Shown here one piece after another: positions 5,322-35,276 of a DNA stretch of 41,029 nucleotides. A program made the position numbers and the translations under genes. Source of the DNA: a virus; the IMG/VR virus record IMGVR_UViG_3300010373_000023, positions 1 through 41,029 of that record; one strand, 5' to 3'. Every line of letters starts with the position of its first letter. The stretch's first letter is position 1. The notes under the pieces were generated by a model. The model did no database searches, was not told the DNA's origin, and was given only the letters and a program-made list of their open reading frames with translations.

Positions 5322-6969
5322 GGTAAAACTAGGGATAAGCGGTGATGCGGCCGTAGTCCAGGGCCTCAAGCGACTGCAGCAGGCGGAGGACCAAGCGGCG
5401 GGCGGCAGCAGCGCTTTGTCGAGCGCGATGTCGGCCATGGAGATCCCGGCGCTGCGCGCGATCTCCGCTGCGACCGGCCTGGCGACGGCCCTGATCAGCC
5501 TCTCTGCGGGCGCGATCGCGGCCTCCGGCATCCGCCTCGCGGCGCAGTACGAGCGCGTGGAACTCGGATTTAAGACGCTCCTCGGTTCGGCGTCGGCGGC
5601 GCATCAGCTGATGGCCGATATCTCCAAGCTCGGACAGACCACCCCGTTTAAGACACAGGAATTGACGCAATATGCCAGGCAGCTGCTTGCCACCGACGCG
5701 AGCGCCAACAAAGCGGTGAACACGCTGCGAGTCCTGAAGGCCGTCACGGATACCATGGCAGCCACCGGCGGAACGACCGCGGACGTCGGCGAAGTGGCCA
5801 GCGTGATCGGTCAGATGCGAGTGGCGACTCATATCGACATCGAGCAGATCAAGACGCTCTCGAGACTCGGAGTGAATGTCACTGGCGTCTACAAGGCCGC
5901 GACCGGCAAGGACGTTGCGCCGCAGATCGCCATGGCGCGCCTGGCGAACATGCAGGGACCCAGAGCCGCGGAGACGCTCTTAAAGGGCATGGAGAAGCTG
6001 TACGGCGGCGCAGCGGCGTCTCAGGCGGCCACCGGCCTCGGCCTGCTGCAGAACATCATCGAGACGCTCGGACTGGTCTCGCTTCCGACAGGAGTGCTGC
6101 TGCTCGGGCTGATCAAGCCGATTGCGGCGATGGCGCTTCATATTTTGACGACCGCGCAGCACATCAACGAAATGACGCACGGAGTGGCCGGCCTCGCGAC
6201 GATCCTGATCCTGCTCATTCGCGGGTGGACCGTGATCTCCTCGGTCTGCATTGCCGCCTACACTGCGACCACTCAGCTCACCGCGGCACTGATGGCCTAC
6301 TCCAACGCGGCTCGCTCCGCCGCTGCCAGCACAACCACCGCGGCCGCGGCCTCAAGGACGGCGGCCGCCGCAAATACCGTTGCGGGAACAGCCGCGGCCG
6401 CGGGAGGAGCTGCAGCGAGCGGAGGGGCAGGCGCAGCGGTCGCGGGCGGCGCCGGAGCTGCTTCCGCTGCGTTCGGGCTCAAGTCGCTGTGGCCCCGGTT
6501 GATGGGAGGTGGACTGAAAGCGATCGGTCCGGAGATCGCCGCCATGCTTGGAGGCGCGCTGAAGTTTCTGAAGTCGCCGGGCGGCCTCGGTCTGGCGGGT
6601 CTCGGGCTGTCTCTTTTCGGCGGCTACCTGCAGGGATCCAAAAACAACGGAACAAAGAACACCGGCGACTATCTCTCCAATATCGGCGGTGCGATGGGTA
6701 CGGCGAGCCTGGTGGCGCTGCTGCCCATTCCGCCGCTGATCAAGCTCGCGGTGATCGCGCTCTCGGGAGTCGGCGCCGGGCTTAAGACCTGGTGGGACAA
6801 GAGTCACGAGAAGCCGCCCACTGCGGAGAGCCCCATGGCGCTCACGAATGCGATCTTAAAGGATATCCACGCCGTTCTGATCGGAGGCGGAGACCGCGCG
6901 AACCGGGTGAAATCTGAGCTTGAAGCAGAGTACGCGATCCGCCATGCCGTGCTGACGGGCGGTGGCTAA
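5302..6969 (+). CDS. tail tape measure protein
   Basis: 555 residues, ATG overlapping the GT reading frame. N-terminal part has the TP901/PhageMin-type tape measure core (YERVELGFKTLLGSASAAHQ, then TTPFKTQELTQYARQLLATD, with KTLSRLGVNVTGVYKA at about residues 187-202). The centre contains hydrophobic stretches (about 255-335) and an Ala/Gly-rich linker (about 340-395). By the rule of about 0.15 nm per residue it predicts a short tail of about 80 nm. The stop TAA overlaps the next ATG by one base. Confidence 0.9.
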   Translation: MLLSSLEVKLGISGDAAVVQGLKRLQQAEDQAAGGSSALSSAMSAMEIPALRAISAATGLATALISLSAGAIAASGIRLAAQYERVELGFKTLLGSASAAHQLMADISKLGQTTPFKTQELTQYARQLLATDASANKAVNTLRVLKAVTDTMAATGGTTADVGEVASVIGQMRVATHIDIEQIKTLSRLGVNVTGVYKAATGKDVAPQIAMARLANMQGPRAAETLLKGMEKLYGGAAASQAATGLGLLQNIIETLGLVSLPTGVLLLGLIKPIAAMALHILTTAQHINEMTHGVAGLATILILLIRGWTVISSVCIAAYTATTQLTAALMAYSNAARSAAASTTTAAAASRTAAAANTVAGTAAAAGGAAASGGAGAAVAGGAGAASAAFGLKSLWPRLMGGGLKAIGPEIAAMLGGALKFLKSPGGLGLAGLGLSLFGGYLQGSKNNGTKNTGDYLSNIGGAMGTASLVALLPIPPLIKLAVIALSGVGAGLKTWWDKSHEKPPTAESPMALTNAILKDIHAVLIGGGDRANRVKSELEAEYAIRHAVLTGGG

Positions 6970-9766: not shown

Positions 9767-9805
9767 TGTCCGGCAATGTCCGGCAAGGGGGTTTGAATGT
9801 CCGGC
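9767..9805 (+). repeat. three phased TGTCCGGC repeats before a tail-fibre gene
   Basis: TGTCCGGC occurs at 9767, 9777 and 9798 (spacing 10 and 21 bp, about one and two helical turns). Two copies lie in the intergenic gap; the third contains the first codons of the 9797 gene. The same octamer, inverted, recurs with the same 10/21 spacing at 16328-16366. Copies lie on one DNA face, as expected for a cooperative DNA-binding site. Confidence 0.6.
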
Positions 9806-10198
9806 ACCGCTAAAACACATGTGAGCGAGCAGGTTTGTGGGGATTATGTGACTGGCATCTCACCGGCGGTGTCGCGGTGGGTCGGTCTCTTCTCGACGGC
9901 GCCCACCGACGTTGCGGCGACCGGCGTGGAGCTGGCCGGAGGCGCGTATGCCCGGCAGCCGATCACCTTCGGTGCGGGCGTCAATCAAACTCCGCATGGC
10001 AGGCTGTACACCAATAATCTGGCAGCCAACTTCGCGACGGCAACGACGAACTGGGGCACGCTGCCGGAGTATGGTGTCTTCGATGCGGTGTCCGGCGGGA
10101 ACCTGATCTATCACGATGCGCTGACCGGCCCGCCTTCGGTCGTGATCGGCCAGACGTTCTCGCTGCCGGTGGGCACCGTCACCTACCTGGAGGACTGA
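9797..10198 (+). CDS. tail fibre-like protein (short)
   Basis: 133 residues. Pattern of a widespread phage tail-fibre family: SRWVGLFSTAPTD, then GGAYARQPITFG, then ATTNWGTLPEYGVFDAVSGG and LIYHDAL, ending in a strand-rich tail. ATG preceded by AAGGGGG. The 40220 gene has a related layout, so the phage has two such proteins. It probably decorates the tail tip or assists receptor binding; no catalytic residue is evident. Confidence 0.7.
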   Translation: MSGTAKTHVSEQVCGDYVTGISPAVSRWVGLFSTAPTDVAATGVELAGGAYARQPITFGAGVNQTPHGRLYTNNLAANFATATTNWGTLPEYGVFDAVSGGNLIYHDALTGPPSVVIGQTFSLPVGTVTYLED

Positions 10199-15001: not shown

Positions 15002-15615
15002 AGCTGAGCCCTTGTGATCCCTAGGACTGCACGCTCCAGGTCCGTGAGATCCCAGACCGCGAGGACGGCGTAGAGGCCGCCTCCCAGGGCTTTGAGCAGG
15101 GCAGGGTCCACGGGCGCAACGATCTCCCAGCTGTCGACTTCGAACAGGATGTGATAGTTCTTCAGGGCATACGCCGGCCTGAACTGCGGCGGAATGCTGG
15201 GAACCATGGCTCGCTTGACCCGATCCCGGTGGAAGGGTTTGCCGTCCGCGGTGGCAGCTGCAGGAAAGGTCCCGAGCGGGATCCGGGTGCAGGTGGCGGC
15301 GATCATCTTGCCCCGGCTGTTCCGGTCGTAGAACCTGCAATCGTAGCGGTCTTTCGACCAATCCGGATTAAAGTCCACGCAGACCGTGCGCGTGTCAGCT
15401 CGCGCGATGGCCAGGTTCGGGTAGCCATTGGGCTTGAGCCCTCCGGCGCGCATGACCTGCGGCAGCGAAATGACCCGTTTACCGGCCGCGATCTCGCGAT
15501 AGCCGCGCATGATGATCGCATCCTCTTCGCTGCCGCCTTCCGCGACGGCGGCCTTGTACTCCAGAAACGCCCGGCGCGCTTTGTCCGGTGGGATGATAAA
15601 CGGTTGAAGATCCAT
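14998..15615 (-). CDS. conserved phage early protein, unknown function
   Basis: 205 residues with a strong AGGAGG site. Contains SEEDAIIMRGYREIAAGKRV, LPQVMRAGGLKPNGYPNLAI, and a strand-rich core with VPSIPPQFRP. No catalytic triad or nucleotide-binding loop is visible. It is the largest soluble protein left of the replication genes and probably acts early in infection. Confidence 0.7.
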   Translation of the reverse strand: MDLQPFIIPPDKARRAFLEYKAAVAEGGSEEDAIIMRGYREIAAGKRVISLPQVMRAGGLKPNGYPNLAIARADTRTVCVDFNPDWSKDRYDCRFYDRNSRGKMIAATCTRIPLGTFPAAATADGKPFHRDRVKRAMVPSIPPQFRPAYALKNYHILFEVDSWEIVAPVDPALLKALGGGLYAVLAVWDLTDLERAVLGITRAQL

Positions 15616-15668
15616 AATGCCCTCCTGATTTGAGCTTTACTGCATTGACCGAAGTTGCCGATATTTTG

Positions 15669-15989
15669 TCAGCCGTCATCGCTCTCCAGGTCCTCACGCA
15701 GCTCTTCGACGATCTTGGCGTGCTTCTTGAGCGCCGCGACTTCGTTGGTGTACCGGTACATTTCCTCGCTTCGTGGACCGCCGAAGATCACTGTCTCCCA
15801 GAGGACGGGTTTACCGCTGCAGAAATTGTGATCCAGTCCGAGGAAGATGGTGGACACGGTAACGTCCGGCTTGACCTCGGTTCGCGCAAGCTGGCGGTTG
15901 GCAGCATCTTCGAACCATTTGGCCCATTCGAGCAGCTCCGCTGGCTTAGGCTCGCCTTCTGCGTCCAGGATATAGTAGAGGGGTCTCAT
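15669..15989 (-). CDS. conserved phage early protein (MRPLYYILD family)
   Basis: 106 residues from ATG 15989, which overlaps the upstream TGA; an ATG eight codons earlier is less likely. The pattern MRPLYYILDAEGEPKP, LLEWAKWFED, VSTIFLGLDHNF, ETVIFGG and YRYTNEVAALKKH matches a small protein found in many phage early regions. The function of that family is not established. Confidence 0.75.
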   Translation of the reverse strand: MRPLYYILDAEGEPKPAELLEWAKWFEDAANRQLARTEVKPDVTVSTIFLGLDHNFCSGKPVLWETVIFGGPRSEEMYRYTNEVAALKKHAKIVEELREDLESDDG

Positions 15990-16489
15990 TGGTCCACCTT
16001 CGTGTCGTTCCAAGATGCGATCAGGTTTTGGATCCAGTTTCGGCGCGGCGGCGCGATCAGCGCCGGCGGCCGCGACTGCATCTCCATCGCTCTGAGCTTC
16101 TGCTCATTCTCGACCTGAGCCTGGAGCTGCTCGATCTGGCGGTCCTTGGCGTGGAGCTGTTCCTTCAGGACCTCCAGCATGGAGGCGAGGACCTCGTACT
16201 GGACATCTCGCCGGACATCGCCGGACACTTCGGACACCGATTTCTGCCCGATAGCGTCCAGATCTGGCGCGATCGCCTTCGAATCTGGCTCGTTTGGCGC
16301 GTTTATGGCGCATTCTTCGGACATTACGCCGGACATTGCCGGACGCCAGCGCACCTTTGCCGGACGCACTTCAGGCGCTGTACGGTCCTCTTCGGGCAGG
16401 CCGGACACGACGCGTCGGGCCTGGCGCTCGCTCAAGTGGCGGCGCAGGGCGAACTCGGTGATGGTGATCCATTCTTCTGTATCGATCAT
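15986..16489 (-). CDS. HTH + coiled-coil protein of the replication module
   Basis: 167 residues. An N-terminal winged-helix-like DNA-binding segment (WITITEFALRRHLSERQARR, residues 7-26), a variable linker, then a coiled coil (about 100-140: LKEQLHAKDRQIEQLQAQVE) and an end rich in Trp/Arg. Resembles DUF3967-type plasmid/phage replication accessory proteins. Its DNA contains the phased TGTCCGGC repeats, an arrangement recalling origins placed inside replication genes. ATGA overlaps on both sides. Confidence 0.62.
   Translation of the reverse strand: MIDTEEWITITEFALRRHLSERQARRVVSGLPEEDRTAPEVRPAKVRWRPAMSGVMSEECAINAPNEPDSKAIAPDLDAIGQKSVSEVSGDVRRDVQYEVLASMLEVLKEQLHAKDRQIEQLQAQVENEQKLRAMEMQSRPPALIAPPRRNWIQNLIASWNDTKVDQ
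16210..16407. repeat. phased GCCGGACA/G repeats (candidate iterons or operator)
   Basis: GCCGGAC[A/G] begins at 16210, 16220, 16328, 16338, 16359 and 16400, with looser TTCGGACA at 16229 and 16316. Spacings are near multiples of the helical repeat (10, 10, 21, 41). The copies fall in all three reading frames of the surrounding gene, so they are not a protein repeat. The inverse octamer also forms the 9767-9805 array. Confidence 0.6.
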
Positions 16490-17070
16490 GATGTTATCGA
16501 CAATTGCGAGCTGATGAATGGCGAGCCTGGTGGAAATAGCTCGGGGTTACGTTTCCAGGCAGGTTTGAGCAGCTCCTGAGTGACGGCCTCGCGGTGAGAT
16601 TCGACGCGGGAATTGTACGAGTCGATGTACTCCTGCCGCAGTCTGCCGATGGATTCGCGCATCCAATGGTACCGGTGCCAGATCGCATGCAGGCCACTCA
16701 TATCCTCCGCCGCTCTCCGGACGAGAGTTGGAACTCCTGGCGGCCACTTGCGCCCCATGTATTTCTCGGTCAGCGCCCATGCTTCGAAGTCCGGGAGGGT
16801 CGGCGATGCGATATCGAGCGCCCGCTGCCAGATGTCCGAGGCAGTCGGCAGAAACGGCGACGACAGGATCACTCGAATGACGATCTCTTTAGCAATGCTG
16901 CTCGGAAGCGGCACAATCGCGGCGCTGTAGAGCCTTGCGACGGCAGGTCTCCATTCGTGCGATTTGCCTTTGCAGGCATATTGAGTTTGGATCAGCTCAA
17001 GCAGCTCCGAAGTCTGCACGTCACACTCGAAAGTCTCTTCCTCTGGTTCGGTCTCGTTCCACATCGTCAT
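16486..17070 (-). CDS. putative replication accessory protein
   Basis: 194 residues, ATGA overlap with the upstream gene. Helical: SELLELIQTQYACKGKSHEW, FLPTASDIWQRALDI, WPPGVPTLVRRAAEDMSGLH, and a basic C-terminal helix. It sits between the large upstream replication-like gene and the HTH/coiled-coil gene, where phages often encode a helicase loader. No Walker motif is present, so an AAA+ loader is excluded; a DnaC-independent adaptor is only a guess. Confidence 0.55.
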   Translation of the reverse strand: MTMWNETEPEEETFECDVQTSELLELIQTQYACKGKSHEWRPAVARLYSAAIVPLPSSIAKEIVIRVILSSPFLPTASDIWQRALDIASPTLPDFEAWALTEKYMGRKWPPGVPTLVRRAAEDMSGLHAIWHRYHWMRESIGRLRQEYIDSYNSRVESHREAVTQELLKPAWKRNPELFPPGSPFISSQLSITS

Positions 17071-18035
17071 TGATTGGCTACCTTCTGTTCAAATTCAGCC
17101 CGGACTCTGGCTGCTACCTCAGCATTCGAAAGAGACGGCTTTGAGGCAGCCTGACTCGCGGCTCCTCCTGAAACCGCGCCGTGAAGCATACCGGGCAGCC
17201 CTGGCGTCTTTCGCTGCCTGTCAAGCTCGTCTGCAGCCCGGTTCTTGACGATGTTCCTGCAGTACGTGATCGCGTCTTTGATTTTGTACCGGTCTCCGGG
17301 CTTCATATTGCCGACGACAGACCTAACAATGTCAGGTGGGAATTTCTCCTTCGCCAAAATAGCGAGGAGCTTTGCATCCTGAGAGTCGTGTTCGTCGATC
17401 GGGTATCGTGTGTCGATTTGTAATTCCGGAGAGGCAGGCGTCGGACCGACAGACAGTCCGTCGGATTCCCCCTCAGTCTGTAAGTCAGTCGGAGATGCCG
17501 GGCGCGCGCGAGGGGGCTGATCACTTTTGTTGGCCGTTTGTGTGGGAGATGTCTGCTCCGTACGTACGGTTTGTGCATTCGCGGCGCTGGATTTGTTTGA
17601 CGGAGCTGCTCCGTTTGTAAGCGTCTCGCGCGAGGTTTGTGCGGGGGCGACCGCTAGACCTAGCTCCGTTTCAATGCGCGTGAGCCTCGCATTAAGCTGC
17701 ATTGCACGCGTGTTGGCGACGGCCTCCGCTGCGGCGGACCGGGCGGGATGTTCCTCTTCTGCTGTGGCTGTGGCGGCTGATGGAGCGAGCACGCCTGCAC
17801 GACAGAGCTTGCCATCCACACGGACGAGCCAGCCGTATTCGATCATGCGATCTACGAACAAGGGGCGGTACTTATTGTTCAGCAGCCCCTGGAGCAGCCA
17901 TTCGTCCGCGAGCTGCCCGTCTCCAGCGATGTGCAGCCTCACGATCACGGCGACGATGGCTTCCCGCCAGGTGGGGCGGAGATATTTGTAAAGGAAGTGA
18001 TCGAACAGTTCTAGCGGGGGCACGTTCTGGCACAT
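17067..18035 (-). CDS. putative replication initiator-like protein
   Basis: 322 residues from ATG 18035, the start best placed behind GAGGAG; GTG 18044 is possible. An N-terminal winged-helix-like domain (YKYLRPTWREAIVAVIVRLH to VDRMIEYGWLVRV, about residues 15-75), a long disordered Ala/Thr/Ser/Pro linker, and a C-terminal helical domain (DAKLLAILAKEKFPPDIVRS, DRYKIKDAITYCRNIVKN). This layout is like phage replication initiators and replisome organisers. It heads the three-gene replication segment. Confidence 0.55.
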   Translation of the reverse strand: MCQNVPPLELFDHFLYKYLRPTWREAIVAVIVRLHIAGDGQLADEWLLQGLLNNKYRPLFVDRMIEYGWLVRVDGKLCRAGVLAPSAATATAEEEHPARSAAAEAVANTRAMQLNARLTRIETELGLAVAPAQTSRETLTNGAAPSNKSSAANAQTVRTEQTSPTQTANKSDQPPRARPASPTDLQTEGESDGLSVGPTPASPELQIDTRYPIDEHDSQDAKLLAILAKEKFPPDIVRSVVGNMKPGDRYKIKDAITYCRNIVKNRAADELDRQRKTPGLPGMLHGAVSGGAASQAASKPSLSNAEVAARVRAEFEQKVANQ

Positions 18036-18081
18036 CGGCAGCACTCCTCAAATTTCTATCTCAGTGTCAATAGATTTGCCG

Positions 18082-18110
18082 TGCACCCCGTTTGGTATAA
18101 TAGAGGTGCA
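18082..18110 (+). promoter_or_regulatory. extended -10 promoter flanked by inverted repeat
   Basis: TGGTATAAT at 18093-18101 on the plus strand, a full extended -10. TGCACC (18082-18087) and GGTGCA (18105-18110) flank it symmetrically and could bind a regulator. No plus-strand gene follows; the RNA would run to the hairpin at 18143-18179. The complementary strand also reads TATTAT, so leftward initiation is possible too. Confidence 0.55.
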
Positions 18111-18188
18111 GCACAGCGGATAAACGAATAGGTAAATCTATGGCGGCCCGGATCTGACTTGACAGGAGATCCGGGCCGCTTGGCGTTT
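18108..18188 (+). ncRNA. candidate small antisense RNA A
   Basis: Between the extended -10 and a 13-bp perfect stem (18143-18155/18167-18179) followed by TTGGCGTTT. About 80 nt with no meaningful reading frame. It lies opposite the leader between two leftward genes (stop 18192, start 18035), so it would be antisense to that leader. The U-tract is interrupted, so termination is less certain than in unit B. Confidence 0.4.
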
Positions 18189-18191
18189 AGA

Positions 18192-18470
18192 CTACGCGGG
18201 CAGCGTCAGCACTGGCTGCGCCGCGACGCTCTCCTTCAGCGCGGCGATAGCGGCATCGATGGCCGTCATGTCCTGCGCTGCTACGGCCGCCTCCAGATCC
18301 GAGACTTTACTGTTGACATCTGTCTGGAACTGCGCATCCGCCGCGTTGTGGGCGTCCACATCCGCCTTCAGCTTATCAAGGTCCTCTTTTTCGCCTGCCA
18401 TCTGTTTCTCCAATTTCTTGACCCGGCGCTCCAATTTCGGATCGCTGCCGAGCATGATGATAGTTGCCAA
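18192..18470 (-). CDS. small coiled-coil protein
   Basis: 92 residues from TTG 18470 (AAAGGGGA six bases upstream) or 87 from ATG 18455. Heptad pattern through DPKLERRVKKLEKQMAGEKE and DLEAAVAAQDMTAIDAAIAA. Similar Ala-rich coiled-coil proteins recur in phages without known function. No membrane segment. Located just before the antisense unit A. Confidence 0.65.
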   Translation of the reverse strand: MATIIMLGSDPKLERRVKKLEKQMAGEKEDLDKLKADVDAHNAADAQFQTDVNSKVSDLEAAVAAQDMTAIDAAIAALKESVAAQPVLTLPA

Positions 18471-22430: not shown

Positions 22431-23498
22431 GTGAAACCCGCAGATGCTGCTAATGCCTACGTCGCCCACTGCAGGGCACGCAATCTGTCCCCGAATAGCG
22501 TGATCACCTACCGTCACGCCCTGGGCTGGATGGTGCGGTCCCTGCCGGATGCTGATTTTGCACAGATCACCTCTCCTCAAATCGATGCCGCCTGGTCCGC
22601 CATCGCCGATGCGGACGAGCTGGGACCCAACACGCTGCGCCTTTACCGGGTGATCATGGCGAGCTGGCTGGACTGGTCCATCCGGAAGGCGGGCCTGGCC
22701 CGGCACGCTCTGCGCGAAATCCCGCTCCCGAAGAAGGTCGCGCCCTTTCGGCCGAAGGTTTCGATCCAGCGCCTCTACGCGCTGCGGGCGGCCTGCGTGA
22801 GACTGAACTCCGACTACGAACGAGTGCGAGCGCTCGCCCTCCTGGAGACGCTCTGGTCCACGCTCACCCGGCGCGCGGAGGTGCGCAGCCTGCAGGTGCG
22901 CCATCTGCGTCTCGAGGACGACCCGCCCGAGATTCACATCGAGTGCGGAAAAGGCGGATGGTCTGGCAACATTCCGATCAGCGATCGCGCCGCCGGTGCG
23001 CTGCGAGACTGGCTTGCGGTCCGCGGCGATGCCGGGCACGATTGGCTCTGGTGCAACGAGGGAGAAAAGCGTCAGCGCATGGGGATGCATGCGCTGTACA
23101 AGCTGCTTGGCACTCTGGCGACCTCGGCCGGAATTGCGGTGGACGAGTGCAAGCCGCATGCCGTACGACGAGGATCCTCGACCGCGATGCTGCAGGCCGG
23201 GCAGGACCTCGGTACCGTCAGCCTGTATCTGCGGCATCGATCGATCCAAACGACAATGGATTATGTGGAGTCGAGCACTAATCGCCTGGCGAAGGTACGA
23301 AATTGGATGGAAGATGTCGAGAAGGCGGAAGCCAAGGAAGGTTCGAGGGACACTATCATCGAGGAAATCCGCGGTTACATGGCTGCCGCCCAGGAGCCCA
23401 CGGTTCCGGCCGAGCAGCGGCCGCAGGCGAAGAGCGACCCGCGCGCCCACCGGCGCCGGATGCAGACAACGGTCCGGCATAGGCAGCAGCCAGAGTAA
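22431..23498 (+). CDS. int: tyrosine integrase
   Basis: 355 residues from GTG, 10 bases after the CI-like stop. SAM-like N-terminal domain (residues 1-90) and a catalytic domain with all expected residues: Arg147 (TRRAEVRSL), Lys174 (ECGKGG), His243/Arg246 (KPHAVRRGSS), His269 (LRHRSIQTT) and the Tyr278 nucleophile (TTMDYV). C-terminal basic/Pro-rich tail of about 60 residues. Catalyses site-specific integration and, with an excisionase, excision. No attP core could be found by eye. Confidence 0.93.
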   Translation: MKPADAANAYVAHCRARNLSPNSVITYRHALGWMVRSLPDADFAQITSPQIDAAWSAIADADELGPNTLRLYRVIMASWLDWSIRKAGLARHALREIPLPKKVAPFRPKVSIQRLYALRAACVRLNSDYERVRALALLETLWSTLTRRAEVRSLQVRHLRLEDDPPEIHIECGKGGWSGNIPISDRAAGALRDWLAVRGDAGHDWLWCNEGEKRQRMGMHALYKLLGTLATSAGIAVDECKPHAVRRGSSTAMLQAGQDLGTVSLYLRHRSIQTTMDYVESSTNRLAKVRNWMEDVEKAEAKEGSRDTIIEEIRGYMAAAQEPTVPAEQRPQAKSDPRAHRRRMQTTVRHRQQPE

Positions 23499-24780: not shown

Positions 24781-25757
24781 TTCTGCCAGCCGAAGTCGTC
24801 TTCCATCCGTTTCTTGTAAACCTCGCGATCCGATCGCTTCTCCTCGTCGTCGATCGGCGCGGAGATCATGAGCGAAGAGGTATTAAGCTCGTCGGCATAC
24901 GGATCGCTCTCGATCAACGCTCCTAGATTGAGCGCCTCGCGGTAGAGGCCGCAAATCTCGATCAGCAGCGGGACGCACGCCATGTCGTCCGCTGCACGGT
25001 AGGCCACCAGGCGGGCCACAAACCTCGCGACAATCGGATCCGAATTGAGCGTGTCGAGTGTCTTCACCAGCTCCGCCACCGGCGACGTCGCCGCCTTAGC
25101 AACGGGAGGCTCAACGGGCGCGGCCTTCGCAGCTGCCCGCAACTGCTCCAGTTCAGCGCGATCGGCGGCAAGCTGCGCCTGATCCGCTTCGGCCTGAACT
25201 CGCTGGTTGTACAGCTCGTGCAGTGCAAGGATCGTCGCGTCGCGGGCCATTTTCGCGGTCGTGTCGTACTCCTCGAATTGTTCAAGCCATTCACCGCTTG
25301 CGTCTTTGCGCGTGGCTGCCAGCGCCTCACACCGGGCCGTGATCTCCTGAGATGTCGCGCCGGCAAGAGTGATCGGCAGTCGGCGCAGCTCCTCGATCGC
25401 GGCCATGATCGCAGCCTGGCGGCCGGCTTCCGCCTGCTCACGCTCGATGCGCGCTCGCTCGATGCGGCTCTCCTCGGCGTTGATCTGCCCGGCTATCGGA
25501 TCTTCGAGAGCGGAGATTTGCAGGGATATCCGCTTCGCTTCGCTGTCGATCAGCTTTGCCTGCTCCAGCACGGGCGCCTTGATCTTCACGCGCATCCGCT
25601 CGAGCGCGGTCCGATACCCGGCCAACTCCTTGCGCGCCGATTTCGCGGCCGACATCCCCGCGTCGCTGCCGACCTCGTAGAGCTTGCCAGCGTAGCGGCT
25701 GCGCAGCGCATCGAGCGCCGCGGCGGTTACACTGTATTCAGTGATCTGTGTTTGCAT
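24777..25757 (-). CDS. DUF1351-like recombination accessory protein
   Basis: 326 residues from ATG 25757 (25760 also possible) behind AGGAGG. N-terminal 180 residues are helical and coiled-coil rich: SARKELAGYRTALERMRVKI, LEQAKLIDSEAKRISLQISA, then GEWLEQFEEYD. The pattern agrees with DUF1351 proteins that lie beside recombinases in phage operons. C-terminus has a separate domain (PIVARFVARLVAYRAADDMA). Likely helps single-strand annealing or nuclease function; inferred. Confidence 0.55.
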   Translation of the reverse strand: MQTQITEYSVTAAALDALRSRYAGKLYEVGSDAGMSAAKSARKELAGYRTALERMRVKIKAPVLEQAKLIDSEAKRISLQISALEDPIAGQINAEESRIERARIEREQAEAGRQAAIMAAIEELRRLPITLAGATSQEITARCEALAATRKDASGEWLEQFEEYDTTAKMARDATILALHELYNQRVQAEADQAQLAADRAELEQLRAAAKAAPVEPPVAKAATSPVAELVKTLDTLNSDPIVARFVARLVAYRAADDMACVPLLIEICGLYREALNLGALIESDPYADELNTSSLMISAPIDDEEKRSDREVYKKRMEDDFGWQK

Positions 25758-26476: not shown

Positions 26477-26660
26477 AGACACGTCGATACCGGATGCGTT
26501 CGACCAGATGATTAAGGGGCCGTACGCCATCAATGACAAAATCGCGCGGCTAGAAAAGACCGTGAAGGCGCTCGCTAAGCGTGTTGAAGAATTGGAAGCG
26601 CGCGAGGAGCGGCGCCATCAAGAGGATATCGATCGTGCGGAACGAGGCGACGGATCGTGA
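26469..26660 (+). CDS. small coiled-coil protein
   Basis: 63 residues, ATG overlapping the excisionase-like gene by eight bases. Heptads in NDKIARLEKTVKALAKRVEE and highly charged C-terminus. Unknown; likely co-transcribed with its neighbours. Confidence 0.65.
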   Translation: MPEDTSIPDAFDQMIKGPYAINDKIARLEKTVKALAKRVEELEAREERRHQEDIDRAERGDGS

Positions 26661-27097
26661 CTTCACCCTACAAAGTCTGCCCGGCCTGCCAACTGTCCTA
26701 TGCATCGAGCCTGGCCGAATGCCCGCGCTGCGCTCACTTTCGGCGAAGTCAGCAGCCGGTACCAGTAGTGAAGAAGCCTTCCGGGTGGGACTGGCCAGCG
26801 TCGACTCCGCAGCAGTGGTTCAGCGGCCTGGCGGCGATCGCGGCGATCCTGTTCTTCTGCTGGGTGATCATCCCTTGGATGTTTCCTCGCGGCGGCCGGA
26901 ATTCAAACGACGATCTGTACAAAGTCAAGTTTGGAATGCAGGTCGCCGACGTGCAGCAGATCATGGGAGAGCCGGACCAGTCGCAGGATTTTCAGAGTAC
27001 CGGGATGCGGATGCAGATGTTCTATTACACCGTGGGCGGGCGGCAGGTGCAAATCGCTTTCCAGAACGGCCGCGTCGACTCGATCAACAGGTATTGA
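26657..27097 (+). CDS. zinc-ribbon / membrane / BamE-like protein
   Basis: 146 residues from GTG (GTGA overlap). Three parts: a zinc ribbon (CPACQLSYASSLAECPRC, residues 8-25), one membrane helix (FSGLAAIAAILFFCWVIIPW, about 55-75), and a SmpA/OmlA (BamE-like) domain (VKFGMQVADVQQIMGEPDQS then IAFQNGRVDSI). The ribbon would be cytoplasmic and the BamE-like domain outside. It lies in the small-gene set behind the excisionase-like gene; an envelope function such as exclusion is only a hypothesis. Confidence 0.7.
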   Translation: MTSPYKVCPACQLSYASSLAECPRCAHFRRSQQPVPVVKKPSGWDWPASTPQQWFSGLAAIAAILFFCWVIIPWMFPRGGRNSNDDLYKVKFGMQVADVQQIMGEPDQSQDFQSTGMRMQMFYYTVGGRQVQIAFQNGRVDSINRY

Positions 27098-35239: not shown

Positions 35240-35276
35240 GATCGCGCGGATCGGTCGGATCGGTCTGATCGGTCGG
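35240..35276 (+). repeat. 9-bp tandem repeat before the 35288 gene
   Basis: GATCGGTCG / GATCGGTCT / GATCGGTCG: three direct copies between the coat gene stop and the ribosome binding site (GGAGGAAA) of the next gene. Possible protein-binding site or slippage product. Confidence 0.5.

Follow-up and report, generated by a model that had tools for sequence, protein, structure and literature searches.

Phased short direct repeats in an early operon of a phage genome: a candidate replication origin

An early operon with repeats inside one of its genes

The DNA analysed here (the window) is a stretch of 41,029 nucleotides, IMG/VR virus record IMGVR_UViG_3300010373_000023. Three of its minus-strand ORFs, 17067-18044, 16486-17070 and 15986-16489, are joined by successive 4-bp overlaps and encode products of 325, 194 and 167 residues, respectively; the next ORF of the operon, 15669-16013 (minus strand, 114 residues), has no assigned function. 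None of the three overlapping ORFs matched a Pfam family at the cut-off or an informative PHROG. The sole match of 16486-17070 is weak and leads to a family of unknown function (phrog_9804, E=0.0012), and it is the layout that suggests a helicase loader as its possible product. ORF 15986-16489, which holds the repeats, matched neither a replication family in general nor the O-family initiators at the Pfam and PHROG thresholds, its HTH being known from single-sequence prediction only. In that prediction (AlphaFold2), the 167-residue product comprises an HTH (residues 10-29), a low-confidence linker (about 33-88), a long helix or coiled coil (89-139), which is the confident part of the model, and a C-terminal helix (150-166). 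The 325-residue product, a candidate for the role of alternative initiator, is predicted to have a winged-helix-like N end (low confidence, pLDDT below 50) and a helical C-terminal domain (mean pLDDT 50.8 for the whole model, about 85 for residues 215-276). Structure searches returned nothing informative.

The preliminary description of this DNA had reported at least six octamers within 15986-16489, distributed over all three frames and spaced by nearly whole helical turns. The six it listed were all located at the positions given: on the strand as presented, they read GCCGGACA at 16210, 16220, 16328 and 16400, and GCCGGACG at 16338 and 16359. They constitute the six GTCCGGC sites of the window's array, which lie on the minus strand only (four exact TGTCCGGC and two CGTCCGGC) and are indeed spread over all three frames (0, 1 and 2) of the ORF, itself on the minus strand. 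Three weaker copies on the same strand lengthen the array to nine sites. Following the minus strand, iteron 1 (16400-16407, exact TGTCCGGC) precedes by 41 bp iteron 2 (16359-16366) and, 21 bp further, iteron 3 (16338-16345), both CGTCCGGC with one mismatch to TGTCCGGC; iteron 4 (16328-16335, exact) lies 10 bp past iteron 3, the weak iteron 5 (16316-16323, TGTCCGAA) 12 bp past iteron 4, and the weak iteron 6 (16229-16236, also TGTCCGAA) 87 bp past iteron 5. Iterons 7 (16220-16227) and 8 (16210-16217), both exact, come 9 and then 10 bp later, and the weak iteron 9 (16198-16205, TGTCCAGT) closes the array 12 bp past iteron 8. The window array contains the TGTCCGG core at a 9-11 bp repeat. Phasing is good locally, the preliminary description having given spacings of 10, 10, 21 and 41 bp; the claim of helical spacing is weakened for the array as a whole by its 87-bp gap and 12-bp steps, some of the steps between sites not equalling a whole helical turn.

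The sites encode residues 28-95 of the 167-residue product, and thereby coincide with the linker between the predicted HTH and coiled coil, which is itself predicted to be disordered. About 50 bp from the first array site lies a candidate unwinding region of 60 bp (16459-16518), one of the eight lowest-GC windows of this size in the genome; a GC content of only 40% in a genome of 60% nevertheless counts against the origin reading discussed below. Within this region, TTATCGACA at 16494-16502 was considered as a DnaA box beside the array and rejected, as a match with one mismatch is no more than expected by chance. No clear turn in GC skew coincides with the array, and a promoter search over 15500-18300 found none. 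No D5_N or D5 helicase match was obtained in the window, and no primase or helicase was found in the subset of window ORFs scanned, which suggests that the phage uses host replication enzymes. Since a tyrosine integrase is encoded at 22431-23498, the phage probably integrates.

Controls on the array and a second cluster

According to the preliminary description, base composition would yield two or three octamers in the window. That figure is too low: GCCGGACR occurs 16 times, as compared with 6.6 ± 2.8 in dinucleotide shuffles, one of which (out of 100) gets to 16. The strong point of the observation is clustering, not the abundance of the octamer. Indeed, codon-preserving resampling of ORF 15986-16489, a control that the preliminary description had asked for, gave a mean of 0.45 GTCCGGC and never at least six in 100,000 trials; when the ORF's own synonymous codons were permuted, the mean rose to 1.10 and at least six sites were again never obtained (0 of 50,000). 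With no motif set in advance, a heptamer present six times within 200 bp arose in 1 of 2,000 codon-preserving resamplings. The same approach revealed no heptamer excess in the neighbouring ORFs 16486-17070 and 17067-18044. Synonymous controls without six GTCCGGC sites in 150,000 trials bear out the earlier contention that protein sequence cannot explain the sites, and support the conclusion that the repeats are kept at the DNA level.

Other repeats were noticed in the window. ACGGAGC and ACAAAC recur at 17541-17671, in the linker-coding part of ORF 17067-18044, ACGGAGC being at chance level in this ORF by the codon-preserving test, and GATCGGTC is present three times at 35249-35274, in 9-bp steps.

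A second cluster, absent from the preliminary description, lies on the plus strand 6.4 kb away and consists of three exact TGTCCGGC copies: the first (9767-9774) is between genes, the second (9777-9784) 10 bp past it, and the third (9798-9805), 21 bp past the second, covers the start codon of ORF 9797-10198, a gp80-like tail gene. The cluster is therefore essentially intergenic, preceding this gene and overlapping its start, and the 10- and 21-bp steps of the main array recur in it. Because the octamer was defined at the other array, the cluster constitutes an independent test, and three TGTCCGGC within 45 bp were not encountered in any of 1,500 third-order Markov simulations. A cluster in late genes is unusual: in 21 of 22 other array phages checked (see below), close TGTCCGG pairs are confined to one place, the exception being G028, with two such places separated by 1.2 kb. 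Seven of the nine exact TGTCCGGC copies in the window belong to the two clusters. Stoperators of the mycobacteriophage L5 type are many single sites scattered through the genome; this type of element was considered and set aside, the exact copies being clustered rather than dispersed singly.

Relatives of the early module and TGTCCGG arrays in other phages

No relatives of ORFs 15986, 16486 and 17067 were found in IMG/VR or among named phages, nor any relative of ORF 16486 in 396 genomes from the phylum of an Acidobacteria array genome. The sole IMG/VR match to 15986 (L002, 42% over 45 residues) was discarded, as ORF inspection suggests an antisense match. Terminase relatives of the phage were found at 28 loci, whose early modules differ from that of the window, and 20 of these relatives, searched as whole records, contained neither the early proteins (0/20) nor a TGTCCGG pair (0/20). 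The term replication module, used in the preliminary description, thus comes from anatomy, since the early ORFs have neither relatives nor a replication-family match; for the latter reason, a role of the module in replication is not proven. One terminase relative (L423, about 6496-6762; G004, 26496-26762) carries ten AACCCTCC-type repeats, in both orientations and at 9-13 bp steps, within the 3'-terminal part of a gene for a primase of 1185 aa. Two others, L419/L420 (G001, 25316-25664) and L425/L426 (G005, 40717-41081), contain long repeats of 15-bp and 12-bp period, which advance in frame steps of three and are probably protein repeats.

An IMG/VR scan for three TGTCCGG at 9-10 bp spacing returned 94 loci. 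As a first permuted control (TGCTCGG) was dominated by 9-bp protein repeats, a separate 10-10 bp control was used: triplets of this spacing were found at 38 IMG/VR loci for TGTCCGG and at 5 for the permuted heptamer, a comparison that, like the other scans seeded with TGTCCGG, does not measure how often this heptamer is used relative to others at phage origins. At least two sites in each orientation were present at 42 TGTCCGG loci and at none of the 120 control loci listed. A primase-helicase gene lies beside the array at 39 of 68 TGTCCGG loci (median distance 172 bp), as against 3 of the 120 control loci listed with such a gene within 1.5 kb. The neighbouring primase-helicases are unrelated in kind, some being of the D5_N/DUF5906 type (L058, L106) and others combining Prim-Pol and AAA_25 (L097, L101). 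At three loci, the array is within an initiator-like gene, which matches a PHROG replication initiation protein in L140 (E=2.7e-7), has weak PHROG support in L062 (0.0069) and matches no family in L122.

Conservation could be assessed in a related system, that of 14 phages with a D5-type primase-helicase (L031, L046, L058, L080, L081, L083, L085, L093, L106, L110, L114, L128, L132 and L141), not for the window's own array. Twelve mirror-symmetric TGTCCGG sites are 97% conserved by column in these phages, as compared with 61% for other columns, the median pairwise identity outside the sites being about 44%. Taken together, these data support the view that a TGTCCGG core at 9-10 bp spacing marks origin-like regions near replication genes of many phages. 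The motif alone is no proof of an origin, because some of the chromosomal TGTCCGG triplets, among the matches listed, occur in genes outside phage replication. A few triplets were seen in bacterial-genome ORFs that match or resemble an NUBPL-type P-loop NTPase (L268, L276) or PriA (L387), and are possibly interspersed in-frame repeats.

The same layout is found with other heptamers in named phages, at the 3' end of the primase/helicase gene: CGTGACA in Rhizobium phages 16-3 (12 copies, L439 3578-3854) and RHph_X2_25 (13 copies, L440 3594-3870), GTATAAA in Roseobacter phage CRP-831 (10 copies, L441 3561-3703) and TGGGACA in MW202867 (8 copies, L442 3850-3955). Salicola CGphi29 has a weaker GGGGACA array (5 copies) at its primase 3' end, and vir555 has CAGTTGA within its primase gene. 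As to TGTCCGG itself, we put forward only tentatively that it is a common origin word, a heptamer that unrelated initiators (D5 helicase, Prim-Pol/RepA helicase, winged-helix initiators and the HTH/coiled-coil type of the window) would use at the same spacing owing to a shared DNA-binding partner or to origin exchange.

Interpretation and comparison with known systems

We consider it probable that the array at 16198-16407 represents the initiator-binding iterons of a phage replication origin located inside the early operon; the cluster at 9767-9805 would then be an additional iteron set, accessory in role or for copy control. The sites, their spacing, the DNA-level constraint and the second cluster are direct results, and the origin function is supported by analogy with the arrays described above. 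Against this reading speak the early proteins without a replication-family match, the 8-bp sites that all point one way where primase-associated origins have an inverted arrangement, the lack of D5_N in the window, and a second cluster that is unusual in lying among late genes. As to mechanism, we infer the following. The HTH/coiled-coil product of 15986-16489, or else the winged-helix-like product of 17067-18044, would bind the same-strand TGTCCGGC copies, so that initiation would be carried out by products of the very operon that bears the array. Binding would be cooperative and on one face of the DNA, which it would bend; the bound protein would then open the adjoining A+T-richer stretch near 16459-16518, and the opened site would be passed to the host replisome. 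The repeats would be tolerated in a coding region because the linker they encode accepts any sequence, as in lambda O.

The main rival is an operator array, in which an HTH/coiled-coil regulator would bind the repeats within the gene that encodes it and, since it could act there too, those at 9767-9805, thereby controlling both the early operon and the tail gene. A predicted HTH followed by a coiled coil suits a dimeric repressor, a protein bound before and over the start of 9797-10198 could block expression, and the presence of one octamer in two places fits a single protein with two targets. However, nine sites in the middle of a coding region, where the promoter search came up empty, would make an odd operator, and elsewhere the phased core adjoins primases or sits in initiator-like genes. 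We therefore regard an operator as unlikely.

It is improbable that the repeats are neutral, that is, a functionless 10-bp minisatellite generated by slippage in a tolerant linker. Structure prediction does depict the linker as unconstrained, and many of the chromosomal TGTCCGG triplets listed consist of nothing but 10-bp tandems and lie in unrelated genes; however, the window array, with its dissimilar spacers and irregular steps (41, 21, 10, 12, 87, 9, 10, 12), is no tandem array, the octamer is found again at the second cluster, and the scattered sites of the D5-type phages have been retained in that family amid drift.

Slightly less probable still is a partition site of centromere type, at which a small DNA-binding protein would act to maintain the prophage as a plasmid. 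The centromeres of ParR/omega systems are likewise phased short direct repeats, and a ParA-like gene lies some 1.1 kb from one of the TGTCCGG arrays (L104). However, a ParA-like product is absent from the subset of window ORFs examined, the integrase points to integration instead, and arrays elsewhere follow primases rather than ParA. Finally, a chance or protein-driven cluster is hardly credible, since, even though TGTCCGGC fits the composition of a 60% GC genome and a low-complexity CCGCGGC cluster at 6281-6397 nearly equals the top-ranking GTCCGGC array in a simple heptamer-cluster scan of the window (20.6 and 21.5, respectively), the codon-preserving tests and the independent second cluster make it improbable.

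For a phage whose replication proteins have no known match, the origin reading names a candidate origin together with defined sites and possible binders. A recurring architecture at phage origins, readable from DNA alone, is brought out as well: heptamers repeated in steps of 9-10 bp, either next to replication genes or within them, with TGTCCGG common to several unrelated replication systems.

Among open-licence papers, the literature on iterons offered general precedents only, and searches for five tandem spellings as plain letters (exact spellings) found no paper. PICI/SaPI-type origins combine short iteron sets with a rep/primase gene (PMC6092414); their AT-rich melting region lies between two iteron sets, an arrangement not seen in the window. 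With the origins of the P4-alpha/D5 and Prim-Pol-RepA types, the window array shares the TGTCCGG core and the 9-10 bp spacing, their arrays being located beside the replication gene. It differs from them in that those arrays mostly occupy the primase-helicase 3' end and have both orientations, whereas the window sites are all direct, on one strand and without the dyad layout; moreover, neither D5_N/DUF5906 nor Prim-Pol/AAA_25 turned up beside the array in the scanned subset of window ORFs. A likeness in repeats and steps, and not in any similarity shown for flanking proteins, is provided by the L011 prophage (IMG 2830095549_000004), in which a gene that weakly matches a primosomal protein is followed downstream by TGTCCGGCAATGTCCGGCAA direct repeats with steps of 10, 10, 21 and 12 bp, near-identical to the second cluster.

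In lambda, the iterons are in the middle of gene O, with an AT-rich tract alongside (PMC7466680). The preliminary description had invoked this precedent of iterons in a replication gene, and the parallel holds for layout, not for homology to lambda ori or O, the host gene matching no replication family. The lambda iterons, bound by O, are four in number and longer, whereas the window has nine or more 8-base sites, a weaker A+T-rich tract, an extra distant cluster and no O homologue. As in lambda ori, direct iterons lie centrally in an early gene of a coupled operon, where the gene encodes a linker, and these copies of a short sequence are kept at the DNA level; the A+T-richer stretch about 50 bp from the first site is a candidate counterpart of the lambda tract. 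The best reading is thus that of an origin which would be lambda-like in layout and not homologous to lambda ori/O.
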